The position numbers and the translations under genes were made by a program. From the NCBI GenBank assembly GCA_022071945.1, contig JAJVIN010000001.1:124001-188000 (forward strand): 64,000 bases of DNA, read 5' to 3'. The DNA is from Thermoanaerobaculia bacterium (GTDB lineage Bacteria; Acidobacteriota; Thermoanaerobaculia; UBA5066). This document shows positions 11,420-61,400 of this stretch, piece after piece (positions within the stretch are counted from its first letter, which is position 1; each line of letters opens with the position of its first letter). The notes below the pieces were generated by a model. That model saw only the letters and a program-made list of their open reading frames with translations, had not been told where the DNA came from and did no database searches.

Positions 11420-11468
11420 CCGTGAAGAAAACCCAGGCTTTTAGCATAGCTCATCGTCCTCGACGGCC

Positions 11469-19962: not shown

Positions 19963-19964
19963 AC

Positions 19965-21358
<1,394 letters not shown>

Positions 21359-21362
<4 letters not shown>

Positions 21363-21907: not shown

Positions 21908-22526
21908 CACCTTTCTCCGCGCCGTTCCCGTCTTCCTATTCGGTCTTTTGGCCCTGGGATGCCGGCAGGGCATGTACAACCAACAAAAGTACAAGCCTCT
22001 GGCGGAAAGCTCGCACTACCCCAACGGCATGGCGTCGCGGTCCCTGCCTGCCCACACGGTTCCTCGCGGATTCCTGCGCGAGGATGCCGCGCTGTACAAG
22101 GGGCAGGGAGCGGACGGCAAGTTCGTCACGGCGTTTCCGGTCCCGGTGACGAAGGAACTCCTCGAGCGCGGCCAGCAGCGTTTCGAAATCTATTGCTCCC
22201 CCTGCCACTCCCGGCAGGGTGACGGACTCGGGATGGTGGTGCGGCGCGGCTTCAAGCAGCCTCCCTCCTACCACATCGACCGGCTCCGCCAGGAGCGGCA
22301 TGGGTACTTCTTCGACGTCATCACGAACGGGTTCGGCGAGATGAACGGATACGCGGCCCAGATCCCGCCCGAGGACCGCTGGGCCATCGTCTCTTACATC
22401 CGGACCTTGCAGTACTCACAGCACGTCAACACCAGCGAACTGGGGGCGGAAGACCGCCGGCTCGTCGAGGAAGCCGCGGCGAAGCCGGCTTCTCACCCGT
22501 CCGGATCTTCCCCGAAGGGGCACTGA
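21897..22526 (+). CDS. actE: alternative complex III monohaem cytochrome c lipoprotein ActE
   Basis: A 209-residue periplasmic cytochrome with a lipoprotein signal (VPVFLFGLLALGC). A single haem motif CSPCHSRQGDG occurs at ~residue 100, and a MNGYAAQIPPEDRWAIVSYIRTLQ tail is typical of cytochrome c folds (distal Met likely). The start is inferred as TTG 21897, in frame within the end of actD and preceded by GAGGT about nine bases upstream; no in-frame ATG fits the signal peptide. It overlaps actF by one base. Confidence 0.88.
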   Translation: MRRNTFLRAVPVFLFGLLALGCRQGMYNQQKYKPLAESSHYPNGMASRSLPAHTVPRGFLREDAALYKGQGADGKFVTAFPVPVTKELLERGQQRFEIYCSPCHSRQGDGLGMVVRRGFKQPPSYHIDRLRQERHGYFFDVITNGFGEMNGYAAQIPPEDRWAIVSYIRTLQYSQHVNTSELGAEDRRLVEEAAAKPASHPSGSSPKGH

Positions 22527-23725
22527 TGCAGGATCACTCGACAACCTTCATGCCGCCGGACGCGGATCTCGAAAGGATCGGTCGCCGCGGGCTCATCGTG
22601 GGGATCGCCGCGGCGGCCGTCCTCGTCGCGGGAGCCTTCGCAACCGGCAACCAGCAGCAGTTCTTCCGCTCGTACCTGACGGCCTTCACTTACGTGCTCG
22701 CGGGCGGCATGGGCTGCCTCGGCTTCTGGCTCGTCCACCTCCTGTCCCGCGGACAGTGGGGCGTGATGATCCGCAGGATCCTGGAGGCGGGCGCGAAGAC
22801 GATCCCGCTCCTCGGGATCCTCTTCATCCCGGTTCTCTTCGGACTTCACTCCCTCTACGAGTGGAGCCACAAGGACGTCGTGGCGGCTGATCCGATCCTC
22901 AGGCACAAGGCCGCCTACCTCAACGAGACTGGCTTTCTGATCAGGGGGCTCGGGTACTTCGTCCTCCTGACCGGGCTGGCCTTCGTTCTCACCTCGCTCT
23001 CCAGGCGCGAGGACGAGACGGGCGACCCGGCCGTCTCTCACCGCATGCAAGCGATCGCCGGACCGGGCCTCATCGCCTACTTCATCCTGCTCTCGCTTGC
23101 CGCGGTCGACTGGATGATGTCCCTGACCCCTCACTGGTTCTCGACGATCTACGGCTTTCTCTATGTCATCAGCATGGGGGTGACGGGCCTCGGCTTCGTC
23201 ATCCTGATGGCCCGCTGGCTGGGCCCGGAAGGGAAGAAGGCCGTCCCCTTCCAGGACCGTCACTACCACGACTACGGCAAGCTCCTCTTCGCGACCGCCA
23301 CCATCTGGGCGTACTTCCAGGCCTCGCAGCTCATCATCATCTGGTCGGGCAACCTGCCGGAGGAAACCCCCTGGTACGTGACCAGGCTGCACACAAACTG
23401 GAAGTGGATCACGATTGCCGTCGTCGTCCTGAACTGGGCGCTCCCGTTCTTCCTCCTGCTGTCGAGGGACCGCAAGCGGCGCGTGACGCGGCTGGCTCCC
23501 ATCGCGGCGCTCCTGATGGTGGCTCACTGGCTCGACATCCACTGGCTCATCGCGCCGGCCTTCTCACCCTCCGGGATCACGTTCCACTGGCTCGACTTCG
23601 TCGCGCCGGTGGCGCTGGGCGGAATCTGGTTCTGGTACTTCACCCTCCAGCTTCGCAAGCGTCCCGTCGTCCCGGTTCACGGCCCCTACCTCAAGGAGGC
23701 CCTGGAGGTGAGCCATGCACACTGA
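22526..23725 (+). CDS. actF: alternative complex III membrane subunit ActF
   Basis: A 399-residue polytopic protein related to NrfD and to ActC, with about ten TM helices. Recognisable segments are IPLLGILFIPVLFGLHSLYEW, DWMMSLTPHWFSTIYG and YGKLLFATATIWAYFQASQ. ActF is the second NrfD-like subunit of ACIII; in described complexes it lacks a clear quinol site and may aid proton movement. The ATG overlaps the actE stop (TGATG) and its end overlaps the next gene by 11 bases. Confidence 0.92.
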   Translation: MQDHSTTFMPPDADLERIGRRGLIVGIAAAAVLVAGAFATGNQQQFFRSYLTAFTYVLAGGMGCLGFWLVHLLSRGQWGVMIRRILEAGAKTIPLLGILFIPVLFGLHSLYEWSHKDVVAADPILRHKAAYLNETGFLIRGLGYFVLLTGLAFVLTSLSRREDETGDPAVSHRMQAIAGPGLIAYFILLSLAAVDWMMSLTPHWFSTIYGFLYVISMGVTGLGFVILMARWLGPEGKKAVPFQDRHYHDYGKLLFATATIWAYFQASQLIIIWSGNLPEETPWYVTRLHTNWKWITIAVVVLNWALPFFLLLSRDRKRRVTRLAPIAALLMVAHWLDIHWLIAPAFSPSGITFHWLDFVAPVALGGIWFWYFTLQLRKRPVVPVHGPYLKEALEVSHAH

Positions 23726-24164
23726 GCACGGACACGGCTCTCACAAGCCCCAGGTCCCGTTCGATTCGGAGATCAGCGTCTCGGGGATCGTCTGGTTCAA
23801 GGTGGGGCTCACAGTCCTGTCGGTCGGGGTCTTCGTCTTCCTCTGGCTCGCCTACAACCGCTACCAGACCCATCTCCTGGCCAGGAGCGGCGCTAGGTCG
23901 CAGCTCGCGGAGGCAAACGAGCCCCGTCCGCGCGCAGCGATCCGGGTCCAGGAGAACCCGTTGAAGGCGATGCAGGAGCTCTCCGCGAGGGACACGCAGC
24001 AGCTGACCACGTACGGCTGGGTCGACAAGCAGGCGGGCGTTGCCCGGATACCGATCAAGAGGGCCATGGAAATCGTCGCGGAGAAGGGGCTCCCGTCTCC
24101 GGCTCCCCCCGTGGAGACGGCGGGAGAGAAGCCTGCATCCGCGGCACCGGCGGGAGAGAAGTGA
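23715..24164 (+). CDS. small single-TM protein of the ACIII-cox cluster
   Basis: A 149-residue protein with a His-rich cytosolic start (MHTEHGHGSHK), one TM helix (VWFKVGLTVLSVGVFVFLWLA) and a periplasmic tail. The tail contains NPLKAMQELSARDTQQLTTYGWVDKQAGVARIPI in its middle and an Ala/Pro/Glu-rich end. The GWVDKQAGVARIPI-type segment recurs in small proteins between ActF and Sco genes in ACIII clusters. Role is unknown; assembly or bridging of ACIII with the oxidase is plausible. Coupled to both neighbours by overlaps. Confidence 0.7.
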   Translation: MHTEHGHGSHKPQVPFDSEISVSGIVWFKVGLTVLSVGVFVFLWLAYNRYQTHLLARSGARSQLAEANEPRPRAAIRVQENPLKAMQELSARDTQQLTTYGWVDKQAGVARIPIKRAMEIVAEKGLPSPAPPVETAGEKPASAAPAGEK

Positions 24165-25012
24165 CCAGAATCTCGATGCAGAAGGCGCACAACTCCCCCG
24201 CACTCTTGATCGGGGCCCTCCTCCTGGGTGGTCTGTCGCAAGCCGCGTTCTCGCAGCCGATCGTCCCGGCGCCCGTGATGAAGGAAGTCGGCTGGGAACA
24301 GCGAATCGGAAGCCGGATCCCGCTCGACGCGACGTTCCGCGACGAGAACGGCGACACCGTGAAGCTCCAGAAGTACTTCCGCGGCAAGCCGGTGATTCTC
24401 TCTTTCGCGTACTACGAGTGCCCGATGCTCTGCGGTCTGGCGCTCGAGGGACTCGCGGGCAGCCTGAAGGGCTTTTCCCTGACGGCCGGCAGCGAGTTCG
24501 ACGTGATCACGATCAGCTTCGATCCTCGGGAAAAGCCCGCGCTGGCCAAGGCCAAGAAGGCGAACTACGTCGACCGGTACGGGCGCGAGGGCGCGCGCGA
24601 AGGCTGGCACTTCCTCACGGGAGACGAGGCCGAGATCCGCGAGGTCACGGGCGCGGCCGGGTTCCGGTACCAGTGGGACGAAAAACAGCAGGAGTTCGCT
24701 CACGCGACCGGAATCGTCGTGCTCACCCCTGATGGCACCATCTCGCGCTACTTCTTCGGGATCGAGTACGCCCCGAAGGAGCTGCGCCTGGGCCTCTTCG
24801 AGGCCTCGCAGGGCAAGGTCGGCTCGGTGGTCGAGCAGCTCCTCTTGCTCTGCTACCACTACGATCCGGCCGTCGGTAAGTACACGGCCACCGTCCGCAC
24901 GATCCTGAAGGCGGCGGCGGCCTTCACCCTTCTGGCTCTCGGAACCCTCGTCGGCGGAATGCTCTACCGGGAGCGGTCCAGGAAGCGTCAGCAACTAGGA
25001 GCCAACGCCTGA
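24161..25012 (+). CDS. SCO1/SenC copper chaperone
   Basis: A 283-residue thioredoxin-fold protein with a signal peptide (LIGALLLGGLSQAAF) and a C-terminal TM helix (AAAFTLLALGTLVGGMLY). The copper site is visible as CPMLCG (CxxxC) with the distal His in EFAHATGIVVL. Sco proteins deliver copper to the CuA site of cytochrome oxidase subunit II, here the next gene. GTG start overlapping the preceding stop. The C-terminal anchor is longer than in many Sco proteins but common in ACIII-cox operons. Confidence 0.88.
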   Translation: MTRISMQKAHNSPALLIGALLLGGLSQAAFSQPIVPAPVMKEVGWEQRIGSRIPLDATFRDENGDTVKLQKYFRGKPVILSFAYYECPMLCGLALEGLAGSLKGFSLTAGSEFDVITISFDPREKPALAKAKKANYVDRYGREGAREGWHFLTGDEAEIREVTGAAGFRYQWDEKQQEFAHATGIVVLTPDGTISRYFFGIEYAPKELRLGLFEASQGKVGSVVEQLLLLCYHYDPAVGKYTATVRTILKAAAAFTLLALGTLVGGMLYRERSRKRQQLGANA

Positions 25013-25019
25013 GTCAGCC

Positions 25020-26011
25020 ATGACACCGAATACTCCCATCTTCCCTCAAGGCGCCTCTACCTACTCGACCGAGGTCGACATCCTGTTCTATGTCTACCTC
25101 GGCCTCGCGGCGTTTTTCACGGTCGCCATCTTCGGACTCGTCACCGTCTTCGCGGTGAAGTACCGGCGCAAGAAGGCAACGGATGTCGGCGTCGAACCTC
25201 AGGGCCACGCGACGGTCATCGAGGTCACCTGGACTGTTCTGCCCCTCATCCTGATGCTCGGGGCCGCCATCTGGGGCCTGAAGATCTACGTCCAGCAGCT
25301 GACCCCGCCCCCCAACGCCAAGGAGTACTACGTCGTCGGCAAGCAGTGGATGTGGAAGATCGAGCATCCGGACGGCCGGCGCGAGATCAACGAGCTTCAC
25401 GTTCCAAAGGGCGAGGACATCAAGCTGAAGATGACGTCCGAGGATGTCATCCACTCGTTCTTCATCCCCGCCTTCAGGATCAAGGTGGACGCGGTTCCGG
25501 GCCGTTACAACACGATGTGGTTCAACGCGGCCAAGACCGGCACGTATCACCTCTTCTGCGCGGAGTACTGCGGCGTCGACCATGCCCGGATGATCGGCCG
25601 GGTCGTCGTGATGGAGCCGCACGAGTACCAGGAATGGCTGTCGGGAACCAAGGTGCGCGCCGCGACGGCCACGGGCGAGGAGCTTTTCGTCGCCAAGGCC
25701 TGCAACACGTGCCACCGGCCGGACTCTTCCGCCCGGGCGCCCATCCTCAACGGCATATTCGGCAAGGAAGTCGCCCTTCTCGGCGGCAAGACGATCGTCG
25801 CCGACGATGAGTACATCCGCGAGTCGATCCTCAACCCCGGGGCCAAGGTCGTCTCGGGCTACCAGCCCATCATGCCCACCTTCAAGGGGCAGCTCTCCGA
25901 GGAAGAGATCATCCAGTTGATCAAGTACGTCCGCTCGCTTTCGCCGGGAGCCGATAAGGGCGTGCCGAAGACCGCGTCGCTTGCCTTTTCATCCTCCGCG
26001 GAGGCTCACCC

Positions 26012-26015
<4 letters not shown>
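25020..26015 (+). CDS. coxB: cytochrome c oxidase subunit II with fused cytochrome c
   Basis: A 331-residue caa3-type subunit II. Two N-terminal TM helices are followed by the CuA domain, with ligands in [13 protein letters not shown] and [13 protein letters not shown] fused C-terminal cytochrome c domain (CNTCH at ~residue 230, distal Met likely in [10 protein letters not shown]) follows. The fused haem lets the oxidase receive electrons directly from ACIII or a small cytochrome. It overlaps coxA by 4 bases. Confidence 0.94.
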
Positions 26016-27644
<1,629 letters not shown>

Positions 27645-27652
<8 letters not shown>

Positions 27653-28295
27653 GAACTCGACCCTGGCCCACCACTTCGACAGCTACGCCCAGCAGAAGGA
27701 GTCCGCCTCGCTGGGGATGTGGGTCTTCATCTCGCAAGAGATCATGTTCTTCGGCGGGCTTTTCCTGGCCTACACGATCTACCGGTGGCGCTTCCCGGAG
27801 GCCTTTGCCTATTCGAGCAATGAGCTCGACATCGGACTGGGGCTCTTCAACACCATCGTCCTGATCGGCAGCAGCCTGACGATGGCGCTGGCAGTCCGCA
27901 ACGCGGCCCTGGGCGAGAAGAACGGCACCGTGAGGAACCTCATCCTGACGATGCTCCTCGGGTCGGTCTTTCTCGTCGTGAAGGGCTTCGAGTATGCCCA
28001 CAAGTGGCAGCACCACTTGATCCCCGGGCCCAACTTCCAGTTTTCCGGGCCGGATCCGGTCCACGCCCAGCTCTTTTTCGTCCTCTACTTCTCGATGACG
28101 GGCCTTCACGCCCTCCACATGATCGTGGGCCTCGGGATCCTCGCCTGGCTGACCGCACAGGCCGCGAAGGGACGGTTCACTCCCGAGAACCACAACTACG
28201 TGGAGGGAGTTGGGCTCTACTGGCACTTCGTCGACATCATCTGGATCTTCCTGTTCCCGCTGCTCTACCTGTTCGGCCGGCACCACCTGACCTGA
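27645..28295 (+). CDS. coxC: cytochrome c oxidase subunit III
   Basis: A 216-residue membrane protein with about five TM helices. Subunit III hallmarks are [41 protein letters not shown] and [18 protein letters not shown]. The GTG at 27645 is chosen because AAGGAGG sits 10 bases upstream; the in-frame ATG at 27624 overlaps that ribosome-binding site. It overlaps the coxA stop by 8 bases. It stabilises the oxidase during turnover. Confidence 0.93.
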
Positions 28296-28311
28296 AACGA
28301 GGACGCCGCAG

Positions 28312-28647
28312 ATGTCTGTACATGTCGCTCCCCTCAAGACCTACATCTATGTCTTCCTCGCGTTGATGTTCTTCACGGTCCTGACCGTCGGCGTGGCCTT
28401 CGTGAACTTCGCCCACCACGCGCCGAAGGGGATCGGAAACGTCCTGAACGACGCCGTGGCGATGTCGATCGCCCTCACGAAGGCGGTCCTCGTGGTGGCC
28501 TTCTTCATGCACGTGAAGGGCTCGACGAAGATCACGCCGGTCGTGATCTGGGGAACCCTGATCTTCATGGTGATCCTGTTCGTCTTCACGGGGGCCGACT
28601 ACCTCACGCGCCCGATGACGACCTTCGTCCCGGTCATGAGCCAGTAG
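28312..28647 (+). CDS. coxD: cytochrome c oxidase subunit IV family protein
   Basis: A 111-residue membrane protein with three TM helices, matching the prokaryotic subunit IV (CtaF/CoxD-like) family. It shows YVFLALMFFTVLTVGVAFVNF, AMSIALTKAVLVVAFFMHVK and ILFVFTGADYLTRP. GAGGA lies before the ATG. It is the last gene of the respiratory operon and is followed by an intrinsic terminator. Confidence 0.88.
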   Translation: MSVHVAPLKTYIYVFLALMFFTVLTVGVAFVNFAHHAPKGIGNVLNDAVAMSIALTKAVLVVAFFMHVKGSTKITPVVIWGTLIFMVILFVFTGADYLTRPMTTFVPVMSQ

Positions 28648-29533: not shown

Positions 29534-30061
29534 ATGACCGTCGAACCGGTGACCCTGCGCTACGAGATGGTGAATGTGCGACCGGGTTATCTGATGATCG
29601 AGCAGGAAGAGCACACGCTGGTCCGCCGCTCCTACTTCGCGTCGGACCGCGTTCCGCCCTGGGAGGAGTACCGCGAGGGCAATGCGTTCTGGAGGCCGCA
29701 GGGAGCGGCTCAGACATTCCAGTTCGACGTCCGCGACACTGTCACGGGCGAGGTGGTGCCGTTCGGCGAGCTGGCCGGCCTTCTCTACTACGCATGCTGC
29801 TCCAGGGACAGCACCGTCTACCGGATCGGTGATCTGGCCCACGACCAGCGAATCTCGCTCTATGTCGCGATCTCCACCGAGGATGAGGAGGGGCCGGTTC
29901 TCATGCCCGCGGAAAAGGTCCGGGTCCTCAACGCCCTCTTCAACGAACGGCTGAAGAGCCCCGGGAAGAAGGTCCTGATCCTGCCCGACCTCTTCGGTTT
30001 GCACACACAGATCACCTACCAACAGATCGCCATCGACTTCGGCCTCACGTCCATGGAATGA
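29534..30061 (+). CDS. uncharacterised protein leading the redox cluster
   Basis: A 175-residue soluble protein I do not recognise. The start ATG at 29534 follows AGGAG with seven bases spacing; the open frame further upstream has no support. It is mixed alpha/beta, with no signal peptide or TM helix, two adjacent cysteines (YYACCSRDS) and the segments YLMIEQEEHTLVRRSYF and LILPDLFGLHTQITY. It ends ten bases before the first DRTGG-like gene and so is probably co-transcribed. A regulatory or structural role is inference from position only. Confidence 0.65.
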   Translation: MTVEPVTLRYEMVNVRPGYLMIEQEEHTLVRRSYFASDRVPPWEEYREGNAFWRPQGAAQTFQFDVRDTVTGEVVPFGELAGLLYYACCSRDSTVYRIGDLAHDQRISLYVAISTEDEEGPVLMPAEKVRVLNALFNERLKSPGKKVLILPDLFGLHTQITYQQIAIDFGLTSME

Positions 30062-30071: not shown

Positions 30072-30401
30072 ATGAAGGTTCAGGAACTCGCCGAGCGGCT
30101 CGAGCTTGTGGCCGCGACCAAACTCTTCGATCGGGACGTGACAGGGGTCTACATCTCGGACATGGTCAGCGACGTGATCGCCAACGCCAAGGCGGGCGAT
30201 CTTCTCGTGACTGCCCAGGCGCACGCGAACGTGATCGCCGCCGCCAACCTGGTGGACACCTGCGCGATCGTCATCACACAGGGCAAGCCCCTGGGCGAGG
30301 ACGTCGTCAAGATGGCCGAGAAGGCCGAAATATCCGTCTTCACGACGGCTCTGAACCGCTGGCAGGTGGCGACGAAACTGTACGAGGCCGGGGTTCGTTA
30401 G
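30072..30401 (+). CDS. DRTGG-like domain protein 1
   Basis: A 109-residue protein resembling stand-alone DRTGG domains. It shows the VTGVYISDMVSDVIANAK helix-turn, GDLLVTAQAHANVIAAAN and a terminal VFTTALNRWQVATKLYEAG. The eponymous motif reads DRDVTG. DRTGG domains accompany CBS domains and phosphotransacetylase, and small versions occur in bifurcating-hydrogenase operons. Ligand binding is suspected but unproven. GAG/GAGG lies before the ATG. Confidence 0.75.
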   Translation: MKVQELAERLELVAATKLFDRDVTGVYISDMVSDVIANAKAGDLLVTAQAHANVIAAANLVDTCAIVITQGKPLGEDVVKMAEKAEISVFTTALNRWQVATKLYEAGVR

Positions 30402-30432: not shown

Positions 30433-30786
30433 ATGCTTCTCGCGGAGATCGTCTCGCTCCTTGGCTGCACGGAGCTTCTGGACCTCGAAGGGGCTGGCAA
30501 CCGTGAAATCACCGGCTGCTTCGCCGCTGACCTGATGAGCGAGGTCCTGGCTTTTTGCGGCCACGGTCCACTCCTCGTCACCGGGTTGACGAACGTGCAG
30601 TCGCTTCACACGGCGGAAATCGTGGACGTCAAGGCGATTCTCTACGTGAACGGAAAGTGCCCAGACGTCCAAGTCCTTGCCCTGGCAAGGGCCCGGGAGC
30701 TCCCTCTCCTGTCCACCACGATGACCATGTACGAGGCCTGCGGACGTCTCCACCGGGGCGGCTTGCCGGCCTCCACGAAGGTCTGA
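30433..30786 (+). CDS. DRTGG-like domain protein 2
   Basis: A 117-residue paralogue of the preceding protein. It shares the layout ITGCFAADLMSEVLAF, GPLLVTGLTNVQSLHTAEIVD and TTMTMYEACGRLHRGG, while the sequence is well diverged, so the duplication is old. It has three cysteines not matched in the first copy. Two divergent DRTGG-like proteins side by side suggest a heteromeric sensor. GAGGTGAGG lies just upstream of the ATG. Confidence 0.72.
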   Translation: MLLAEIVSLLGCTELLDLEGAGNREITGCFAADLMSEVLAFCGHGPLLVTGLTNVQSLHTAEIVDVKAILYVNGKCPDVQVLALARARELPLLSTTMTMYEACGRLHRGGLPASTKV

Positions 30787-30797
30787 CGAGGTCCGCG

Positions 30798-31226
30798 TTG
30801 AAAGAACCGCTCTATGCCGAGTCCTTCAAGATCAGGGGTGGCGACTTCGAACACGGCGGAGAAGTCGCCACGCGGATCAAGTCGATCTGCAAGGAGCTCG
30901 GGATACGGCCCGACCTCATCCGCAGACTCTCGATCGCGAACTTCGAGGCGGAGATGAACGTCATCATGTATGCCGACGAGGCGGACCTCTGCTTTCAGGT
31001 CTCGACCGAGGACGTGCGGGTCGTGGTGGCGGACCGCGGTCAGGGAATCTCGGACATCGAGCTCGCCATGACACCCGGATGGTCCACCGCCACCGCGGAG
31101 ATGCGCGCGCGGGGCTTCGGGGCGGGCCTGGGTCTGCCGAACATCAGGAACAGCGTGGACGAGTTCCGGGTCGATTCCAGGCCCGGAGCTGGAACCACCC
31201 TCACCTATGTCGTCCGCATCGCATGA
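30798..31226 (+). CDS. HATPase (anti-sigma/RsbW-like) domain protein
   Basis: A 142-residue GHKL ATPase without a phosphoacceptor domain. The N-box-like IANFEAEMNVIMYA, the G1 box VVVADRGQGISDIELAM and the G2 region GFGAGLGLPNIRNSVDEF are present. The form matches RsbW/SpoIIAB-like kinases, and HATPase-only genes also occur in bifurcating-hydrogenase operons. The start is TTG 30798 with GAGGT six bases upstream; nothing before it is homologous. It overlaps the next gene by 20 bases. Confidence 0.78.
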   Translation: MKEPLYAESFKIRGGDFEHGGEVATRIKSICKELGIRPDLIRRLSIANFEAEMNVIMYADEADLCFQVSTEDVRVVVADRGQGISDIELAMTPGWSTATAEMRARGFGAGLGLPNIRNSVDEFRVDSRPGAGTTLTYVVRIA

Positions 31227-32565
31227 CGTGCCCCTGGGCGACGCGCCAACTACGGTTGGCGCGCCCCTGACGAGACGTTCGATCGTCTTCGAGCCCCGGC
31301 GCTGCGTGGGATGTGTCGCGTGTTGCAAGGCGTGCCCGAGCGGAGCCATCCGCGTCCGCGGCGGCTGCGCCGTGGCCGACTCGGAGCTCTGCATCGACTG
31401 CGGTGAGTGCATCCGCTGGTGCCGGCACGGAGCCGTGCGCGCCGCCACGGCCAAACCCGCGGACCTGAAGCGGTTCAAGTACACGGTGGCGCTGCCCGCG
31501 CTGACGCTCTACTCCCAGTTCGGCAAGGACGTCGAACCCGGTCAGGTGCTGCGGGCCCTGAAGAGCCTCGGGTTCGATGAGGTCTACGACCTTTCGGCCA
31601 TGTGCGACATGCACGCGAGCGCGACGGACGCCTACCTTTCCGAGTGCCGCGGTCCCTGGCCGAAGATCTCGGTGACCTGTCCCGCCGTCATCCACCTCAT
31701 CCTCCTGCGCTATCCCGACATGATCGAGAACCTCCTGCCGATCGAGCCGGCCCGGGAGCTCGCCGCCAAGCTCCTGCGCCGGCGTCTCGCCGAGGAGAGA
31801 GGTCTCGATCCCACGGACATTGGACTGTTCTTCATCACCCCCTGCAGCGCCATCCTGCACTCCATCCACTCCCCCGTGGGCCTGGAATCCTCTTACCTCG
31901 ATGGTGCCTTCTCCATCGCCGAGTTCTACGGACCGCTGCTGCGGGCCATCAAGGCCCTCGGGCCCGTCGAGAACCCGCCTCCGATCAGCGCGCGCGGGCT
32001 CCTCTGGGCGATGGCGGGCGGGGAGATCGCCGGGCTGCGCGACGCCAACACGATCACGGTCGCGGGTGCCCGCGACGTGCTTCGGGTCTTCGACCACATC
32101 GAGGAAGGCAAGCTCCAGGCCGTCGACTTCATCGAGGCCTACATCTGCCCCGATGGATGCATCAGCGGTCCCCTGACCGTGGAGGGCCGCTACGCGGCTC
32201 GCCGGACCATCCAGCGGATCGTGCGACGTCACGGCCAGAGGGTCGGCGAGGGAAGCGTCATTCCCGAGGAAAAAGTGCGCGCCCTCCTCAGGGAGCACTT
32301 CTTCGACCTCGAGGAGCACTTGCAGGCCCGTCCGCTCCGTCCCCTGGGCCGCAATCTGAGGGAGGCCGTGGAGCGGAGGCGGGAGGTGCAGCGGCTCCTG
32401 TCGCGTTTGCCCGGCAAGGACTGCGCCGCCTGCGGAGCTCCCACCTGTGCCGCCCTTGCCGAAGACGTGGTAAGGGGAGAAGCCTCACTCAGCGATTGTG
32501 TGTTCGTTCGCATCGAAGGGTTGCTGGAGGCGGCCGCCTCCACGAAGGGACCTGGCCATGAGTAA
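31207..32565 (+). CDS. [FeFe]-hydrogenase-like Fe-S protein, non-catalytic type
   Basis: A 452-residue cytosolic iron-sulfur protein. Two 4Fe-4S motifs (CVGCVACCKACPSG, CIDCGECIRWC) precede a domain resembling the hydrogenase large-subunit C-terminal region. Four cysteines matching the H-cluster cubane ligands are present: C158 (VTCP), C213 (TPCSA), C314 and C318 (CPDGC). The proton-relay Cys of TSCCP is Thr, the Lys/Glu of MPCxxKxxE are missing, and the GGG after the last Cys is SGP. A C-terminal 4Fe-4S module (CAACGAPTC) completes it. This matches HfsB/sensory-type relatives, so a redox-sensing or electron-transfer role is likely, not H2 turnover. Confidence 0.8.
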   Translation: MSSASHDVPLGDAPTTVGAPLTRRSIVFEPRRCVGCVACCKACPSGAIRVRGGCAVADSELCIDCGECIRWCRHGAVRAATAKPADLKRFKYTVALPALTLYSQFGKDVEPGQVLRALKSLGFDEVYDLSAMCDMHASATDAYLSECRGPWPKISVTCPAVIHLILLRYPDMIENLLPIEPARELAAKLLRRRLAEERGLDPTDIGLFFITPCSAILHSIHSPVGLESSYLDGAFSIAEFYGPLLRAIKALGPVENPPPISARGLLWAMAGGEIAGLRDANTITVAGARDVLRVFDHIEEGKLQAVDFIEAYICPDGCISGPLTVEGRYAARRTIQRIVRRHGQRVGEGSVIPEEKVRALLREHFFDLEEHLQARPLRPLGRNLREAVERRREVQRLLSRLPGKDCAACGAPTCAALAEDVVRGEASLSDCVFVRIEGLLEAAASTKGPGHE

Positions 32566-32980
32566 GGAGATGCTCGTCCTTTCGCTGAGTTGCCCGCAGT
32601 GTCACGCCAGGCTCACCGAGGGCACACGGGTGCGCCTCGCGGGTCACGCCGGCCGGACAAACCAGCAAGGAGAGGTTTTGCTCAGCGCCGTCTTCGGCGG
32701 CGGGCGCGGGGACGAGGCGGACCTCGTTCTCGAAACGGATCTCACCCTCGAGAAGGGTGACGCCATCGACTTCTGCTGTCCCCGGTGCGAGGCGAGCCTG
32801 ATGCTCCCCGTGACCTGCAAGGTCTGTGGGGCCGCGCTGGCTTCCCTCGACATCGCCGGGGGCGGTTCCGTCGAGTTCTGCTCCCGGCGCGGCTGCAAGG
32901 CCCAGGCTCTCGGGGGCGCGGGCAACATAGACGAGATGATCAGCCTCGTGAATCGCATGTTCGACACGCCCTACGACTAG
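32558..32980 (+). CDS. zinc-ribbon-like small protein of the redox cluster
   Basis: A 140-residue soluble protein with paired Cys knuckles: SLSCPQCHARL at the start, then FCCPRCEASL, CKVCGAAL and CSRRGCKAQ. These could build one or two zinc ribbons. A Gly-rich acidic stretch (FGGGRGDEADLVLETDLTLEKGD split over the middle) separates the first pair from the rest. I do not recognise the family. It overlaps the end of the preceding gene and lies directly before the NuoE-like gene. Confidence 0.68.
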   Translation: MSKEMLVLSLSCPQCHARLTEGTRVRLAGHAGRTNQQGEVLLSAVFGGGRGDEADLVLETDLTLEKGDAIDFCCPRCEASLMLPVTCKVCGAALASLDIAGGGSVEFCSRRGCKAQALGGAGNIDEMISLVNRMFDTPYD

Positions 32981-33025: not shown

Positions 33026-33493
33026 ATGGAAGCGACCCGGCCGTTCGACTTCGCGAACCTCCACTTCAAAGGTGAGGGCGGCACCCTGATCCCTCTCTTG
33101 CAGAAGGTCCAGACCGAAGAGGGCTACATCTCGAAAGAGCGGATCGAGGAGATCCACAGGAAGACCGGGGTCCCGCTCTCTCACATCTTCGGCGTGGCAA
33201 CCTTCTACGCGCAGTTCCGTCTGCGTCCGGTCGGAAGGAACATCATCAAGGTCTGCCACGGAACCGCCTGTCACGTGGCCGGGGCCAACGCGATTTCCGC
33301 CTCCTTGAAGGACATCCTCCAGATCGGCGACGGAGAAACCACCCCGGACCGCGCCTTCACCGTCGAGACGGTCTCCTGCCTCGGCTGCTGCAGTCTCGCT
33401 CCCGTGATCATGGTCAACAAGGACACCCACGGGAACCTCGCGCCCGCGGACCTGAGAAAGGCGCTCGCGCCCTACCGGAGCGGAAAGGCCTGA
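33026..33493 (+). CDS. NuoE/HydC-like 2Fe-2S thioredoxin-fold subunit
   Basis: A 155-residue subunit homologous to NuoE, HydC and HndA. The N-terminal helical part (LIPLLQKVQTEEGYIS, GVPLSHIFGVATFYAQF) precedes the thioredoxin-like 2Fe-2S domain. That domain has ligands CHGTAC and CLGCC. In diaphorase modules it sits beside the FMN subunit and passes electrons onwards. GGAG lies ten bases before the ATG. It is followed after 3 bases by the NuoF-like gene. Confidence 0.92.
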   Translation: MEATRPFDFANLHFKGEGGTLIPLLQKVQTEEGYISKERIEEIHRKTGVPLSHIFGVATFYAQFRLRPVGRNIIKVCHGTACHVAGANAISASLKDILQIGDGETTPDRAFTVETVSCLGCCSLAPVIMVNKDTHGNLAPADLRKALAPYRSGKA

Positions 33494-33496: not shown

Positions 33497-35266
33497 GTGC
33501 TCGTGAAGATCCTGGTGGGACTCGGAACCTGTGGAATCGCGGCCGGTGCCGCGGCGACCTACGCCGCGGTCCTTTCGAGAACCGGACCGCTCGACGGCAG
33601 CTGCCGGGTGGAGAAGACGGGCTGCGCCGGCATGTGCTACCGGGAGCCGCTCGTCGAGGTCCGCGACGATGACGGGACCCGCTGGCAGTACGGCCAGATC
33701 ACGCCGGCGAGGGTCGACCGGCTCGTCTCCGAGCATGTCGTGAACGGCTCACCCGTCACGGACTGGCTCGTCTGGACGAGCGGAGGAAAGGGTCAGGAGC
33801 AGGCCTTCATCGACCGGCAGCACCGCATCGTGCTCGAGAACTGTGGCGTGATCGATCCCGAGAAGATCGAGGAGTACCTCGAGAAGGGTGGATATCAGGC
33901 GCTCGAGAAGGTCCTGGCTCGCAAGGATCCAGACGGCCTCATCGGCCAGATCATCGAGTCGGGCCTCCGAGGACGCGGCGGGGCCGGGTTCCTCACCGGA
34001 ATGAAATGGCGGTTCACGCGTCTGGCCCCGGGCAAACAGAAGTACGTGATCTGCAACGCCGACGAGGGCGACCCGGGGGCGTTCATGGATCGCTCGGTCC
34101 TCGAGAGCGACCCTCATGCCGTCCTGGAAGGGATGGCCATCGCGGGCCACGCGATCGGAGCAACGAAGGGCTACATCTATGTCCGCGCCGAGTACCCGCT
34201 CGCCGTGGAGCGGCTCACGATCGCCATCGCCCAGGCCGAGGCCCGCGGCCTTCTCGGAGACGGCATCCTCGGGACGGGGTTCGAGTTCCACGTGAGCCTC
34301 AAGGAAGGAGCCGGGGCCTTCGTGTGCGGAGAGGAGACGGCCCTCATCGCCTCGATCGAGGGCCGCCGCGGGATGCCCCGGGTGCGGCCCCCCTTCCCGG
34401 CGGTGAAGGGCCTCTGGGAGTCCCCCACCAACATCAACAACGTCGAGACCTTCGCGAACGTTCCCTGGATCGTGAGGAACGGGGCAGAGGCATTCAGCAG
34501 GCTCGGGACGGCGAAGAGCAAGGGGACGAAAGTCTTCGCCATGGCGGGCAAGATCAGGCGGGGCGGCCTCGTGGAGGTCCCGATGGGGATCTCCATTCGC
34601 GAGATCGTCCACGACGTCTGCGGGGGCATCAAGGAGAACCGCAAGTTCAAGGCGGTCCAGATGGGCGGTCCCTCTGGAGGGTGCATTCCGGCCGAGCTCG
34701 AGGACACGGTCATCGACTACGAGTCGATCAACAAGACCGGCGCCATCATGGGGTCGGGCGGGCTCGTCGTCGTCGACGAGACCACGTGCATGGTCGACAT
34801 GGCCCGCTTCTTCCTCGACTTCACACAGAGAGAGTCCTGCGGGAAATGCACCTTTTGCAGGATCGGCACGAGAAGAATGCTCGAGATCCTCTCCCGCATC
34901 ACCGCGGGCCAGGGAGTGGATGGAGACATCGAGAAGCTCGAGAGCCTGGCTCTCCTCGTCAAGAACAACTCGCTCTGTGGACTGGGACAGACGGCTCCCA
35001 ACCCCGTCCTGACAACCCTGAAGTACTTCCGGGCCGAGTACGAGGCGCACATCTCGAACCGGAAGTGTCCCGCCCATCAGTGCCAGGCCCTCCTCACCTA
35101 CACCATCAACGAGAAGTGCAACGGCTGCGGAGTCTGCGGGCGAGCCTGCTCCGCCAAGGCCATCACGGGCGAGAAACGCAAGCCTCACGTCATCGATCAC
35201 GAAAAGTGCATTCGCTGCGACGAGTGCTACAGGGCCTGCCGCTTCGACGCCATCACGAGGATGTGA
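33497..35266 (+). CDS. NuoF/HydB-like NADH-oxidising flavoprotein subunit
   Basis: A 589-residue HydB/HndC-type subunit. It has an N-terminal 2Fe-2S thioredoxin-like domain (Cys in GTCGIAAGA and GCAGMCYRE). The FMN/NAD core follows, with GRGGAGFLTGMKW, CNADEGDPGAFMDRS and FEFHVSLKEGAGAF. The cubane site is ESCGKCTFCRIGT. A C-terminal pair of 4Fe-4S motifs (CNGCGVCGRAC, CIRCDECYRAC) is absent from respiratory NuoF and typical of hydrogenase or formate dehydrogenase complexes that also use ferredoxin. GTG start at 33497. It would oxidise or reduce NAD(H). Confidence 0.93.
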   Translation: MLVKILVGLGTCGIAAGAAATYAAVLSRTGPLDGSCRVEKTGCAGMCYREPLVEVRDDDGTRWQYGQITPARVDRLVSEHVVNGSPVTDWLVWTSGGKGQEQAFIDRQHRIVLENCGVIDPEKIEEYLEKGGYQALEKVLARKDPDGLIGQIIESGLRGRGGAGFLTGMKWRFTRLAPGKQKYVICNADEGDPGAFMDRSVLESDPHAVLEGMAIAGHAIGATKGYIYVRAEYPLAVERLTIAIAQAEARGLLGDGILGTGFEFHVSLKEGAGAFVCGEETALIASIEGRRGMPRVRPPFPAVKGLWESPTNINNVETFANVPWIVRNGAEAFSRLGTAKSKGTKVFAMAGKIRRGGLVEVPMGISIREIVHDVCGGIKENRKFKAVQMGGPSGGCIPAELEDTVIDYESINKTGAIMGSGGLVVVDETTCMVDMARFFLDFTQRESCGKCTFCRIGTRRMLEILSRITAGQGVDGDIEKLESLALLVKNNSLCGLGQTAPNPVLTTLKYFRAEYEAHISNRKCPAHQCQALLTYTINEKCNGCGVCGRACSAKAITGEKRKPHVIDHEKCIRCDECYRACRFDAITRM

Positions 35267-35270: not shown

Positions 35271-38200
35271 ATGGAACTCGTCAAGCTCACAATCGACAGC
35301 AAGCGCGTGATCGCCGACAACCGGATGACCATCCTCGAGGTGGCCCGGGAAAACGGGATCACCACGATCCCCACGCTCTGCCACGACCCTCGCCTGGCGC
35401 CCTTCGCCGCCTGCTTCCTGTGTGTCGTCAAGGTTCAGGGCGCGCGCACCCTTCTCCCGGCCTGCTCGACGAGGGTGTCGGCCGGAATGGCCGTTCAGAC
35501 CGAGAACCCGGAGATCCGCCGCTCGAGAAAGGCCGCCCTCGAGTTGATGCTCTCCAACCACTACGCGGACTGCATCGGACCGTGCCAGCTGGCCTGCCCC
35601 GCGGGAGTGGACGTGCAGGGGTACATCGCGCTCGCCGCGCTCGACAAGCATCGCGATGCCATCGCCCTCATCAAGGAGCGGAATCCCCTGCCCGCGGTCT
35701 GCGGCCGGGTCTGCACGCGTCCCTGCGAGGTGAAAGGCTGCCGGCGAAATCTGCTCGATGAGGCCGTCGGAATCGACTACATCAAGCGCTACCTTTCCGA
35801 CCTCGATCTCGGCAGCCGGCAACAGTGGCGCCCCCAGCTTCCGCCTCCCAATGGCAAGAAGGCCGCCGTGGTGGGCGCGGGCCCCGCTGGACTGTCGTGT
35901 GCTTACTACCTCGCCCTGCGGGGCTACAAGGTCTCGATCCTGGAGGCCCAGCCCGAGGCGGGTGGAATGCTGCGCTACGGGATCCCGGAATACCGCCTGC
36001 CCAAGGACGTCCTCGACCTCGAGATCGATCAGATCCTCGATCTCGGCGTCGAACTCGCGACGAATGCGATGCTCGGACGTGACTTCACCATCACGAGCCT
36101 GAAACAGGGCGGACACGACGCGATCTTTCTCGGCATTGGGGCATGGGAGAGCTCGAAGATGCGCGTTGTGGACGAGGACACTCCGGGAGTGATCGCGGGG
36201 ATCGAGTTCCTCAGGCAGTTCGGCCTCAGACGAAGGATCGACCTCCACGGCAGAGTCTTCGTGGTGGGCGGTGGGAACACCGCCATCGACTGCGCCCGGA
36301 CGGCCCGCCGCCTCGGCGTGGCGGAAGTCCGCATCCTCTACCGGCGCACTCGCGCCGAGATGCCGGCCAACGAGATGGAGATCGTCGAGGCGGAGCACGA
36401 GGGCGTGAAGCTGGATTTCCTCGTCGCTCCGGTCCGCGTTGTTCGAGGAGAGGACGGGCGCGTGAACGGCATCGAGTGCATCCGGATGGAGCTCGGCGAG
36501 CCCGACCAGAGCGGGCGCCGCAGCCCGAAGCCCATCCGCGGGTCCGAGTTCCGTTTGGAGTGCGACTTCGTCCTGGCCGCCATCGGCCAGAACACACGGC
36601 TGCAAGAACTCGTGGATGGGCGCGTCCCGAACTTCCTGCCTCTCGGAGAGTCCCTCGGCCTCACACGCTGGCAGACCCTGCAGGTCAACGAGCGCACGTT
36701 CGAGACGACCGTGGATGGCGTCTTTGCGGGCGGCGATGTGGTCACGGGCGCCGCGACCGCCATCGAGGCCATCGCGGCGGGCCGCAAGGCGGCATACGCG
36801 ATCGACCGATACCTGATGACGGGCCGTGCCGAGGCCGAACCCGTGGAGGTCTACAGCCGCAAGGACACCCACCGCGCCGTGCGCTCCGAGGACCTTCCCC
36901 CGGGGTCCCCGGAAGGAAGGCGCCGGATGCCCGCTCTCCTTCCCGCCGACCGGATGCTGAGCTTCGCCGAGGTCGAGACGGGCTACGGCAGGGAGGACCT
37001 GAGGAAAGAGTCCGCTCGGTGCCTGGAGTGTGGGTGCAGCGCGTTCTTCACCTGCGACCTGCGGCGCTACGCGACGGAGTACGGAGCCGATGTCCAGGCC
37101 TTTCTCGGACGCGCGAACGAACACCCGGTCGACCGGCGGCACCCGCTCATCGTGCTCGATGCCAACAAGTGCGTGCTGTGCGGCCGCTGCGTGCGCCTGT
37201 GCAGCGAGCTTCTGGGAATTGCCGCGTTCGGCTTCGTTCACCGCGGCTTCGACACCATCGTGGCGCCCGCGCTCGATGGCTCCCTTCTCGAGACCGGCTG
37301 TGTCAGCTGCGGGCTCTGCATCGGCACCTGCCCCACGGGCGCCATCGCCGAGAAGCTGCCGCTCGCCAAGCCGGGACCCTGGAAAACCATCCGCGCCGAA
37401 TCGGTCTGTGACTCCTGCGGCGCGGGTTGCCGGCTCGGGTACGAGGTCTTCGGCACGACCCTGGTGCAGGTTTCACACGTCTCCAGCGACGCGCCCATCC
37501 TGGGCAATCATTGCAAGAAGGGACGCTTCGGCGCCCGGCACGTCCATTCGCCCGAGCGCCTCAAACGCCCCCTCGTCCGGCTCGGACGCGAGCTTCAGGA
37601 CGCGAGCCTTGACGAAGCCCTGCGCCACGCCGGCATGAGGCTCAGGGAGCTCGTTCGCCACACTCCGGGCGACCAGATCGCGGTGTTTCTCTCTCCCCGG
37701 CTCACCAACGAGGAGATCTACCTCGCCCAGAAGCTGGCCCGCCTGGCCCTGCACACGCCGAACGTCACATCCCTGGCCCGCACCGTGAACCGTGAGCTCG
37801 CCGCCCCGGAGGTCGTCTCCACCGCTTCCTACGCGGACGTCCGCGACGCCCAGGTGCTTCTCGTCGTCAACACGGCCCTCGACGAAGAGAGCTTTGCCGT
37901 GGACGTGGACTCCAAGCAGGCCATCCGCAAGGGAGCGCGCCTGATCTACGTCGGCCCCGAGGAGAACAGGACCTCCTCGGTTGCGGAACTCTGTCTGCGC
38001 TGCCGGCCTGGCGGGCAGGCCCACGCCATCCTCGGCATCCTGAAGAGCTACGCGGCGCTCTTGCCCGGCGCCCTGGACGACCATGCCTCACTGGCCGAGA
38101 TGCTCCGGGGCCTCACGCCGGAGCGCCTCGAGGAGCTTTCCGGCGTGGGGCGCGCGACCTTCGACGAGGCGGCCGGACTCCTGGCCAAGACCATCCTCAA

Positions 38201-39035
38201 GGTTCTGATTTTCAACAAGGACTACCGGGGGACGAGGCGGGCCCAGGACGAGCGGCTCTTCGCCGCGGCGGCGGGCGCGCTCGGCTGTTCGGTTCTGGCG
38301 CTTTGCGAGAAGGCGAATTCTCAGGGCCTCGCCGACATGGGGGCCGACCCGCTCTGGCTGCCAGGCTATGTCGACCCATCGCACGAGGAGGCGGTCGAGC
38401 AGATGGAAAGAAAGCTGGGAGTCGTCCTGCGCGATCTTCCCCGGCCGCGCGCGGACGTCGCAAGCCTTCTCCGCGAGAAGAGGATCAAGGTCGCCATCGT
38501 TCTCGGCGAGGATCCGGCCGGAGCCCCGGGCTTTCCCGGCGACCTGATAGAGGGGCTTTTCGCGGCCGACTTCCTGCTCGTGGGAGATCTGTTCCTGACC
38601 GCCACGGCAGCCCGGGCGGCGGTCGTGCTCCCCCTGTCGAGCACGGTCGAGACGAGCGGGACGATGACGAATGCCGAGCGGCGCGTGCAGCGACTGGAAC
38701 GCGCGGTTCCCCCGGCCGCCGGCACGGAGACCTGGGAGATCCTGAGCCACCTCGCGGGCTTGCTCGGCTACCGGTTCAAGCTGAAATACGCGTCCGCCCA
38801 GGACGTCACCGCGGAAATCCACAAGGTCGCGCCGATCTGGAACGGCCTGGACATCGGGAAGGCGGGTGCGATCTGGGACCGGCAGCGTATGCGACTACCC
38901 GAGGTCCCGTTCCGGGACCTCGGTGAGCCGGTGTCGCCGGTGGGGACCCTTGCCCTCGACACCCTGGAAGCCCGCTTTGCGGGGTGGTTCAAAGAGATCT
39001 TCGAGAAGGCACACCGGGACCTCACCGCCGCGTAA
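35271..39035 (+). CDS. 2Fe-2S/GltD-like flavoprotein/4Fe-4S/NuoG-FDH-like fusion
   Basis: A 1254-residue multidomain redox protein. Residues ~1-80 form a NuoG-type 2Fe-2S domain (CHDPRLAPFAACFLC). Residues ~100-560 are GltD-like: GIGP-type Fer4_20 Cys, FAD motif AAVVGAGPAGLSCAYYLA, NAD(P) motif VVGGGNTAIDCARTA, and AGGDVVTGAATAIEAIAAGR. Residues ~615-700 carry two 4Fe-4S motifs (CVLCGRCVRLC, CVSCGLCIGTC). From ~715 comes a molybdopterin-oxidoreductase domain with its cubane CDSCGAGC and CKKGRFG. At the Sec/Cys position of formate dehydrogenase the sequence is LARTVNRE (Val ~839), and the C-terminal Mo-dinucleotide domain is missing. So it is NuoG-like and not a formate dehydrogenase. NAD(P)H/ferredoxin electron transfer is inferred. 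Confidence 0.85.
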   Translation: MELVKLTIDSKRVIADNRMTILEVARENGITTIPTLCHDPRLAPFAACFLCVVKVQGARTLLPACSTRVSAGMAVQTENPEIRRSRKAALELMLSNHYADCIGPCQLACPAGVDVQGYIALAALDKHRDAIALIKERNPLPAVCGRVCTRPCEVKGCRRNLLDEAVGIDYIKRYLSDLDLGSRQQWRPQLPPPNGKKAAVVGAGPAGLSCAYYLALRGYKVSILEAQPEAGGMLRYGIPEYRLPKDVLDLEIDQILDLGVELATNAMLGRDFTITSLKQGGHDAIFLGIGAWESSKMRVVDEDTPGVIAGIEFLRQFGLRRRIDLHGRVFVVGGGNTAIDCARTARRLGVAEVRILYRRTRAEMPANEMEIVEAEHEGVKLDFLVAPVRVVRGEDGRVNGIECIRMELGEPDQSGRRSPKPIRGSEFRLECDFVLAAIGQNTRLQELVDGRVPNFLPLGESLGLTRWQTLQVNERTFETTVDGVFAGGDVVTGAATAIEAIAAGRKAAYAIDRYLMTGRAEAEPVEVYSRKDTHRAVRSEDLPPGSPEGRRRMPALLPADRMLSFAEVETGYGREDLRKESARCLECGCSAFFTCDLRRYATEYGADVQAFLGRANEHPVDRRHPLIVLDANKCVLCGRCVRLCSELLGIAAFGFVHRGFDTIVAPALDGSLLETGCVSCGLCIGTCPTGAIAEKLPLAKPGPWKTIRAESVCDSCGAGCRLGYEVFGTTLVQVSHVSSDAPILGNHCKKGRFGARHVHSPERLKRPLVRLGRELQDASLDEALRHAGMRLRELVRHTPGDQIAVFLSPRLTNEEIYLAQKLARLALHTPNVTSLARTVNRELAAPEVVSTASYADVRDAQVLLVVNTALDEESFAVDVDSKQAIRKGARLIYVGPEENRTSSVAELCLRCRPGGQAHAILGILKSYAALLPGALDDHASLAEMLRGLTPERLEELSGVGRATFDEAAGLLAKTILKVLIFNKDYRGTRRAQDERLFAAAAGALGCSVLALCEKANSQGLADMGADPLWLPGYVDPSHEEAVEQMERKLGVVLRDLPRPRADVASLLREKRIKVAIVLGEDPAGAPGFPGDLIEGLFAADFLLVGDLFLTATAARAAVVLPLSSTVETSGTMTNAERRVQRLERAVPPAAGTETWEILSHLAGLLGYRFKLKYASAQDVTAEIHKVAPIWNGLDIGKAGAIWDRQRMRLPEVPFRDLGEPVSPVGTLALDTLEARFAGWFKEIFEKAHRDLTAA

Positions 39036-47541: not shown

Positions 47542-49311
47542 TCACTCCACCACCTTCAGCATCCTCACATCCACATCGAGGCGCTCTCCCCCGCCACCCA
47601 CGTAGATCGTTCCCGAAGTCGGGGTCGCGTCGACATAGGTGCGGCCGACCGCGACGCGAATGTGATCGGTCTGGGTGAGGATCCCGTTCGTCGGGTCGAA
47701 GCCCTTCCAGCCGATCTCGGGCAGGTAGACCTGGATCCAGGCGTGAGAGGCCTCGGCCTGCCTCTGGTTCGGATGCTTCGGTCCCGTGTAGATGTACCCG
47801 CAGACATAGCGGGCCGGCACTCCGAGAAGGCGCGCCAGGCAAATGAAGAGGTTCGTGAAGTCCTGACAGACGCCCTTCCGGTTCACATACACCTCGAAGG
47901 GCGTCGTGTAGACGTTCGTCGCCCCTTGCCTGTACTCGTACTCCTTGAAGATCGTGGAGTTGATGTCGAGGAGCGTGTCGAAGAGGTCGAAGTCGTTCCT
48001 CTTCGCAAAGCTCATCGCGTAATCGACGAGCTCCGACAGCTCGCTCTCGGGCAACTCCTGTGGCAGCAGGAACGGTTGCAGAACTTGCCGCTGCCAGGGC
48101 ATCCAAACGAGAGGGATCGTCGTGCGGGCATGGATGGGCCGGAAGCTGAGGGGGTCAGTGTCGAGCACCTCAACCGTCGAGGCTGACTCGATCGTCAGGA
48201 CGCTGTACGGCCGCTCGATCACGACCTTGCGGGTCCGGTTCCCGAAGACATCCTCGAACTCGCCCCGGACTCCGTTCGGTAGCTTCTCTCCGTCCACGGT
48301 GATCGTCAGCTGGTTATTGATCAGCGTCTGCAACCGGTCGTGAACGGGCAACAGACGGAACGCGTGCGAGCTCCTCTCGACGGCCTTCGAGTAGTTGTAC
48401 TCGGTTCTGTGGGTCACGAAGAAACGCTGGATCTCCGCCACCTTGGGCCGCTTCTGAGCCGAATGCGAGCTCAGTGCCGGGGTGTCAGGGCTTCCCTTCC
48501 CCGGTTTCACGTCCGGTGCGATCTCGGTCCGGATCTTCCCCTGCCGGATGACGAGGAGGTGTCCCGGTTCGAGCTGCCTCCACGGAATCGGATTGCCGCC
48601 CGGGGCCGGCTCGAGCTGGTCGGAGCAGAGGATGACACCCTTGCGGCTCCTCACTCCCCGCCTCGTCAGATCGATCCTCAGGTCGGCGTCCCCGAACTCG
48701 AGGTTCCCGTAAGGGGGAAGGAGCTCCCAGACGTAGAGCTTACCGACCTCGTTGATGTCAGCGTAGGCGCAAAGGTCGTGGCCGTCCGTCAGGAGGGTCG
48801 TGACCGTGCCATGGCGATTGAGCTCGGCGAACCACTCCCTGAGAGTGGCGGGATCCGCCTCGCCAAGGCTCTTCCACCCCTTCTTCGCCATCCGGTTGAG
48901 CAGCTCGCAAAACATGGTCTCGGTGTCCGTCGACCCGACCGGTTCGAACGGAGAACTGGCATCGGGGGTGAGACGGTCCCTCAGGCTCCCGCCGTGGGCC
49001 AGGAGCCAGTCGCGGCCGCCCCAGCTGCGCGAGAACGGCTGCGTGTTGGCATCGCTGATGTGGCCCCATGTGGCGATGCGGATGTGGAGCAGGAACAACG
49101 AGGAAGCCAGATGTTCCCAGGCCTTCACGAGCTCGCTCCGGATGCTCCCTTCCGGCGGTGTCGGTTCTTTCAGGACCGAGGCCGAGGGCTCGCCGCCGGG
49201 GTAGTACCCGATTCCCCAGCCATCAGGCGGCTTTCGTCCGGGTCTCAGGCAATGGAGATCGAATGACGGAGCGAGCTCCCCCTCGAAGGACATCCCGAGG
49301 TAGTTCGGCAT
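47542..49311 (-). CDS. pseudo-class II amidotransferase/transglutaminase fusion
   Basis: A 589-residue fusion. Residues ~1-270 have the class II glutamine amidotransferase NTN fold (DGWGIGYYPG, HIRIATWGHISDANTQPF, GSTDTETMFCELL). The nucleophile Cys expected at position 2 is Pro (MPNYLGMS), and the oxyanion-hole HNG reads HGG, so the domain looks inactive. Residues ~295-589 carry a bacterial transglutaminase N-domain (THRTEYNYSKAVERSSHAF) and a core with an intact triad: Cys in KGVCQDFTN, His in ASHAWIQVYLP, Asp in FDPTNG. Such proteases/transamidases accompany alpha-E and ATP-grasp amidoligases, found here 10 kb to the right. Confidence 0.85.
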   Translation of the reverse strand: MPNYLGMSFEGELAPSFDLHCLRPGRKPPDGWGIGYYPGGEPSASVLKEPTPPEGSIRSELVKAWEHLASSLFLLHIRIATWGHISDANTQPFSRSWGGRDWLLAHGGSLRDRLTPDASSPFEPVGSTDTETMFCELLNRMAKKGWKSLGEADPATLREWFAELNRHGTVTTLLTDGHDLCAYADINEVGKLYVWELLPPYGNLEFGDADLRIDLTRRGVRSRKGVILCSDQLEPAPGGNPIPWRQLEPGHLLVIRQGKIRTEIAPDVKPGKGSPDTPALSSHSAQKRPKVAEIQRFFVTHRTEYNYSKAVERSSHAFRLLPVHDRLQTLINNQLTITVDGEKLPNGVRGEFEDVFGNRTRKVVIERPYSVLTIESASTVEVLDTDPLSFRPIHARTTIPLVWMPWQRQVLQPFLLPQELPESELSELVDYAMSFAKRNDFDLFDTLLDINSTIFKEYEYRQGATNVYTTPFEVYVNRKGVCQDFTNLFICLARLLGVPARYVCGYIYTGPKHPNQRQAEASHAWIQVYLPEIGWKGFDPTNGILTQTDHIRVAVGRTYVDATPTSGTIYVGGGGERLDVDVRMLKVVE

Positions 49312-55712: not shown

Positions 55713-55731
55713 GACTGGAGAGCATTCGACC

Positions 55732-61341: not shown

Positions 61342-61400
61342 CGTCAATCCCGATTATTGCCACAGGCAATCTGAAATGTAAAAACGGGATACTTATTCTT

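Follow-up and report, generated by a model that had tools for sequence, protein, structure and literature searches.

An Acidobacteriota StnC-like transhydrogenase subunit with a formate dehydrogenase-like domain that has lost its molybdenum site, and its nine-gene operon

The StnABC transhydrogenase of Sporomusa ovata (PDB 8oh5 and 8oh9; PMC7483475, PMC10482914) couples NADPH oxidation with reduction of NAD+ and ferredoxin, and formate is not oxidised by it (PMC7483475). Cryo-electron microscopy of this complex showed that the FdhF-like domain of StnC has no catalytic activity and takes no part in the electron path, which runs FAD-C7-C6-C5-C4-C3-StnB, and that this formate dehydrogenase (FDH)-like domain with its clusters C1 and C2 is needed for assembly and for holding together the tetramer of heterotrimers, since deletion of the domain or Cys-to-Ala changes at C1/C2 break assembly (PMC10482914). 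The StnC chain of 8oh5 is deposited as ‘formate dehydrogenase-O’. Further relatives are the solved Nfn-ABC of Caldicellulosiruptor saccharolyticus (9bov, titled electron bifurcating, and 9bp5) and Nfn-BfuABC of Thermococcales (9n5u NfnA/NfnB; T. sibiricus enzyme, PMC9304861), which has a GltD-containing BfuA and a BfuBC core. Here we describe a member of this family in a window of 64,000 nucleotides from a Thermoanaerobaculia bacterium of the Acidobacteriota (GCA_022071945.1, contig JAJVIN010000001.1, positions 124,001 to 188,000), and the operon to which it belongs.

The open reading frame runs from ATG to TAA without an internal stop. An earlier note on this DNA had described its product as a fusion of 2Fe-2S, GltD-type FAD/NAD(P), 4Fe-4S and FDH-like parts, and the Pfam domains agree with this: Fer2_4 at residues 3-79, Fer4_20 at 103-178, Pyr_redox_2 at 197-504, Fer4_Nqo3 at 625-692, Molybdop_Fe4S4 at 710-760 and Molybdopterin at 763-1162, which is the Fer2, GltD, NuoG-like Fe-S and FDH-like order of BfuA and StnC. 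The two 4Fe-4S motifs counted in that note are present, but the conserved Cys/His set fits more clusters, namely one [2Fe-2S] and six [4Fe-4S], like S. ovata StnC; the motifs HxxxCxxxCxxxCP (H97/C101/C105/C109) and CxxCxCx(n)C (C584/C587/C589/C595) were both found, and the Fe-S ligands show little or no variation across a 20-row alignment. Moreover, the note missed that a NuoE-NuoF-StnC operon of a known transhydrogenase family encodes this protein as its third subunit. The StnA and StnB genes lie directly upstream of stnC; StnB is NuoF-like with an N-terminal thioredoxin-like domain and a C-terminal 2x4Fe-4S region, as in BfuB, and StnA provides the co-encoded NuoE-like BfuC.

The best PDB matches of the window StnC were 9bov (1.6e-250), 8oh5_C (3.2e-216) and 9n5u (8e-196). 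The score against NuoG (TIGR01973) was 242 bits, below the 470-bit cut-off, and no nuo membrane-arm genes were found among the flanking genes sampled around stnC. Likewise, no NfnA partner of an NfnAB enzyme adjoins the gene, the neighbours being NuoE/NuoF-like genes and a HydS-like cassette. Based on these data, the protein is very probably StnC (Nfn-BfuA), which forms the NADP(H) side of an electron-bifurcating/confurcating transhydrogenase of the StnABC type, with its FDH-like domain serving as a structural and assembly module.

In comparison with S. ovata StnC, domain order, upstream StnA/StnB genes, Fe-S ligand motifs, equivalents of Lys170 and Arg239 and an FDH-like domain without a Mo site are shared, whereas the window protein has a longer C-terminal tail, and its operon adds a HydS-like/HATPase/DRTGG cassette in a host with heme-copper oxidases. 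C. saccharolyticus Nfn-ABC, the top-scoring solved relative of both StnC and StnB, differs in organism and operon, and its large subunit has ∼76 residues fewer. The BfuA of T. sibiricus is ∼200 residues shorter than that of S. ovata and has no ligands for cluster A4 (PMC9304861), and the 9n5u alignment covers only residues 2-759 of the window protein.

By analogy with solved and assayed homologs, from which cofactors, electron path, bifurcation and direction in vivo are carried over, the GltD-type FAD domain of StnC would exchange hydride with NADPH, single electrons would travel through Fe-S clusters in the N-terminal part and the NuoG-like region towards the FMN in StnB, and there they would be split between NAD+ and ferredoxin; in the reverse direction NADH and reduced ferredoxin would jointly reduce NADP+. 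The same three subunits might also form a non-bifurcating relative, i.e. a simple NADPH:NAD(P)/acceptor oxidoreductase or an Nso/Sfr-like reductase with no coupled ferredoxin reduction, which would suit the heme-copper oxidases of the genome and the fact that StnB-like proteins are known in non-bifurcating enzymes too (PMC9304861). We regard this as unlikely, however, as StnB best matches the B chains of the bifurcating 9bov, 9n5u and 8oh5 from end to end, with the cluster regions at both termini, relatives retain the triad, and the window's own genome encodes several POR-type oxidoreductases that reduce ferredoxin and could feed it.

Some points weigh against the assignment as StnC of a bifurcating enzyme. 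Cys114 of S. ovata StnC, which is next to cluster C7, is Val115 in the window protein; this cysteine is not strictly conserved in the family and does not define it, being Val or Ile in two homologs (PMC10482914). The FDH-like part, scored alone, matches FDHs better than S. ovata StnC. Finally, direction and bifurcation could differ from those of the characterised members, because these come from strict anaerobes and the present genome carries heme-copper oxidases.

Loss of the Mo site was determined by alignment with E. coli FdhF (MAFFT L-INS-i), in which Sec140 is matched by Val839, His141 by Asn840 and Arg333 by Cys1012 of the window protein, while Cys8/11/15/42 and Lys44 are kept. Thus, the earlier proposal that LARTVNRE stands in place of CARVUH, with Val at about 839, was correct and even understated the loss, as the His and Arg are gone too; it was also right about the remaining cubane cysteines, C713, C716, C720 and C748, which are invariant across a 20-row alignment. 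The C-terminal molybdopterin-dinucleotide domain was said to be missing, and indeed PF01568 was not found in the window StnC by Pfam search, a tail of ∼90 aa standing where this domain would be. Since PF01568 was detected at E<1e-28 in both Cys-retaining relatives (see below), its absence does not reflect poor sensitivity. The FDH alpha subunits (FdhF, FdsA and HDCR FdhF) share the fold of the C-terminal domain and the cubane cysteines with the window protein, but none of the active-site Sec/Cys, His and Arg, nor PF01568. An AlphaFold model of residues 586-1254 as a monomer (predicted local distance difference test score 91.3, predicted template modelling score 0.92) had as best Foldseek matches NAD-dependent FDHs, 9bov and 8oh5; hence the fold is intact though the site is lost.

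Judged from these residues, the domain is incapable of FDH catalysis and is predicted not to bind Mo catalytically, as the earlier note had supposed. A cryptic FDH or other Mo/W enzyme acting via another ligand might be imagined from the FDH-like score of the domain (TIGR01591, 230 bits) and from Cys1012 near the aligned position of Arg333. But the score is far under the 666-bit cut-off, all three catalytic residues are replaced in the absence of PF01568, S. ovata Stn has no formate oxidation (PMC7483475), and the position of Cys1012 is Arg in the 80% identical relative and His in the 74% identical one, so this cysteine is not a substitute Mo ligand. An active FDH, and with it a compensating cysteine, was rejected on these grounds and appears next to impossible.

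The earlier note further suggested that the FDH-like part is an electron-transfer scaffold like NuoG. The scaffold holds; electron transfer does not, because in the solved StnABC the domain is off the path and required for assembly (PMC10482914). A NuoG-like conducting role, with the C713/C716/C720/C748 cubane on the main route, would explain the invariant ligands, but this invariance also fits a structural cluster, and given the off-path position of C1/C2 such a role is very improbable. We therefore keep to a structural module, whose Mo-binding residues and C-terminal pterin domain may have been lost early in the family.

Comparison with the two nearest orthologs gave ratios of nonsynonymous to synonymous substitution rates (dN/dS) of 0.24 and 0.34 for the FDH-like domain, against 0.11 and 0.14 for residues 1-703. 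Purifying selection still acts on the domain, but in relaxed form, as would be expected of a structural part. Recent pseudogenisation was rejected due to these values of 0.24-0.34 together with the invariant cubane ligands, and a sequencing or assembly artefact because the layout recurs in the orthologs with 80% and 74% identity.

Also missed before was that the whole family shares the loss and that this has been published (PMC10482914, PMC7483475). With a threshold of E<1e-200, a StnC homolog was found in 31 of the 396 genomes sampled from the phylum; scanning GTDB contigs added 80 loci, from Bacillota, Bacteroidota, Eisenbacteria, Zixibacteria and other groups. The NuoE-NuoF-StnC triad was upstream in most of the 80 named loci (NuoF at 74 and NuoE at 65, several contigs being cut off). 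Among ∼100 aligned homologs, Cys or Sec occupies the Mo position in only two, both from Vibrionaceae, L103 (Photobacterium sanctipauli, 7998-12191) and L105 (Aliivibrio sp. S3MY1, 8001-12158). These GltD-NuoG-FDH fusions have the same domain order as the window StnC and 35-36% identity to it, but retain CARLCH and an intact PF01568 and have no adjacent NuoE/NuoF; we predict that they are single-polypeptide, pyridine-nucleotide-linked FDHs. In a further StnC-like fusion, from Deltaproteobacteria bacterium ALJrbin.12 (L106, 8001-11705), Ser-His (PEGQSH) is at the Mo position, and no NuoE/NuoF was found upstream; it branches at the base of the inactive clade.

In the tree of FDH domains, all Stn domains lie on one side of a branch (Shimodaira–Hasegawa-like approximate likelihood ratio test support 85 with L106 and 99 without), the window StnC falls in an 11-row clade with support 100, and L103 and L105 group with FdhF. 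In the N-terminal tree, the Vibrionaceae fusions stand beside Cloacimonadota, on a long branch and with a distant outgroup. Thus, a single ancestral loss is compatible with the FDH-domain trees but unproven, as the N-terminal tree places Vibrionaceae differently; by the same disagreement, the Vibrionaceae fusions are no more than possible ancestors.

The triad is preceded in the window by six genes, in the order ORF29534, DRTGG, DRTGG, HATPase, HydS-like, Cys-rich, StnA, StnB and StnC (Table 1). A scan for promoters and terminators gave nothing above chance level.

Table 1. Features of the stnC locus, in window coordinates
Feature	Position	Strand	Evidence
First gene of operon, conserved, unknown family	29534..30061	+	Pfam search, neighbourhood comparison
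DRTGG-domain protein 1	30072..30401	+	Pfam
DRTGG-domain protein 2 (slightly below Pfam gathering score)	30433..30786	+	Pfam
HATPase_c (histidine-kinase-like ATPase)	30780..31226	+	Pfam
Degenerate M2e/HydS-type [FeFe]-hydrogenase-like protein; retains cubane Cys158/213/314/318 and CX2CX4CX16C, has Ile in place of the PCxxK Lys	31207..32565	+	Pfam, alignment
Conserved Cys-rich (zinc-ribbon-like) protein, no Pfam hit	32552..32980	+	Neighbourhood comparison
StnA/HydC/NuoE-like [2Fe-2S] subunit	33026..33493	+	Pfam, profile scores
StnB/HydB/BfuB-like subunit (FMN, NADH, Fe-S; predicted bifurcation site)	33497..35266	+	Pfam; 9bov_B 851, 9n5u_B 841, 8oh5_B 826 bits
StnC/Nfn-BfuA-like subunit, 1254 aa (Fer2, GltD-type FAD/NADP(H), NuoG-type 4Fe-4S, inactive FDH-like domain)	35271..39035	+	ORF, Pfam, PDB matches, alignment, Foldseek
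Lys172 (StnC Lys170, modulates cluster C7), invariant in 20-row alignment	35784..35786	+	Alignment numbering; role PMC10482914
Arg242 (StnC Arg239, FAD site), invariant in 20-row alignment	35994..35996	+	Alignment; PMC10482914
CxxCxCxxxxxC (C584-C595) and two 4Fe-4S motifs (C634-C644, C677-C687), NuoG-like wire	37020..37370	+	Pfam, alignment
FDH-like domain (residues about 706-1167), with Fe4S4 cubane but without Mo site	37386..38772	+	Pfam, FdhF alignment, AlphaFold, Foldseek
LARTVNRE (residues 835-842), Val839 for Sec/Cys, Asn840 for His	37773..37796	+	Alignment
Cys1012, counterpart of FdhF Arg333, unconserved	38304..38306	+	Alignment

The nine-gene order was found in G000, G098, G021, G185, G161, G231, L040 (Eisenbacteria) and L041 (Terriglobia). 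Distant Stn loci have the triad alone, with partial cassettes in Delongbacteria, and for L045, a member of the window's own clade, the Cys-rich gene and the triad are all that was seen within 8 kb. The conserved nine-gene operon in Acidobacteriota and one Eisenbacteria genome is what looks new here, and is specific to this clade.

The HydS-like protein has the M2e layout of group D hydrogenases (Tam HydS, PMC8163306), i.e. two N-terminal 4Fe-4S motifs, a CX2CX4CX16C tail and an HATPase neighbour, and the four H-cluster cubane cysteines are present. Unlike the Tam HydS type, all Stn-linked copies have lost the PCxxK lysine, which is Ile or Met (PCSAI/M) in 8 of 8 aligned copies and in a further G176 copy, whereas true hydrogenases in G021 and G231 carry PCxAKK. 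HydF was not found in five of seven clade genomes, the window's own among them, and in these five the operon gene is the sole Fe_hyd_lg_C gene. We infer that the protein is a degenerate sensor or adaptor. It is conceivable, and we offer it tentatively, that the StnABC of this Acidobacteriota/Eisenbacteria clade has a stable link to a regulatory module of HydS-like protein (cubane kept, diiron site lost), HATPase and DRTGG proteins, which would respond to a redox or ferredoxin signal and adjust transhydrogenase activity or expression, in bacteria many of which have oxygen-respiring oxidases and no PntAB.

PntA was undetected in six of the seven clade genomes, with none at 1e-30 in the window's own. 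The only match among the seven is a PntA-like gene in G098, a genome of the same family (G098:C155:1011-2120), ∼2.5 kb from the stnC homolog (4620-8375). A plausible role for StnABC is NADPH supply from NADH and reduced ferredoxin. COX1 is present in five of the seven genomes; a general tie of Stn to oxygen respiration was rejected because two sister genomes have none. Upstream of the operon, at 16822-28647, the window holds an alternative complex III-like cluster (a Molydop_binding/Fer4 protein resembling ActB, NrfD and cytochrome c); next come SCO1 and COX2/COX1/COX3. ActB, too, resembles Mo-oxidoreductases but carries no Mo. Downstream there are adjacent BACON-dockerin and cohesin proteins (53865-56913), a cellulosome-like pair, and a class-II glutamine amidotransferase fused to a transglutaminase-like domain (47542-49311); a circularly permuted ATP-grasp protein and a DUF2126 amidoligase follow at 59869-63911, and together these may form a peptide-ligation cluster.

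The window protein belongs to a known family in which loss of FDH activity has already been published; the dead FDH domain is explained, and therefore the fusion itself needs no new theory. The loss of the Mo site extends over many phyla including Acidobacteriota, beyond the Firmicutes acetogens, and the two active-site-retaining Vibrionaceae fusions offer a natural comparison for the passage from catalytic domain to scaffold. Moreover, in genomes that have oxidases but no PntA, the nine-gene operon joins a transhydrogenase with a degenerate, putatively sensory hydrogenase-like protein, a combination in which bifurcation beyond strict anaerobes can be put to the test.

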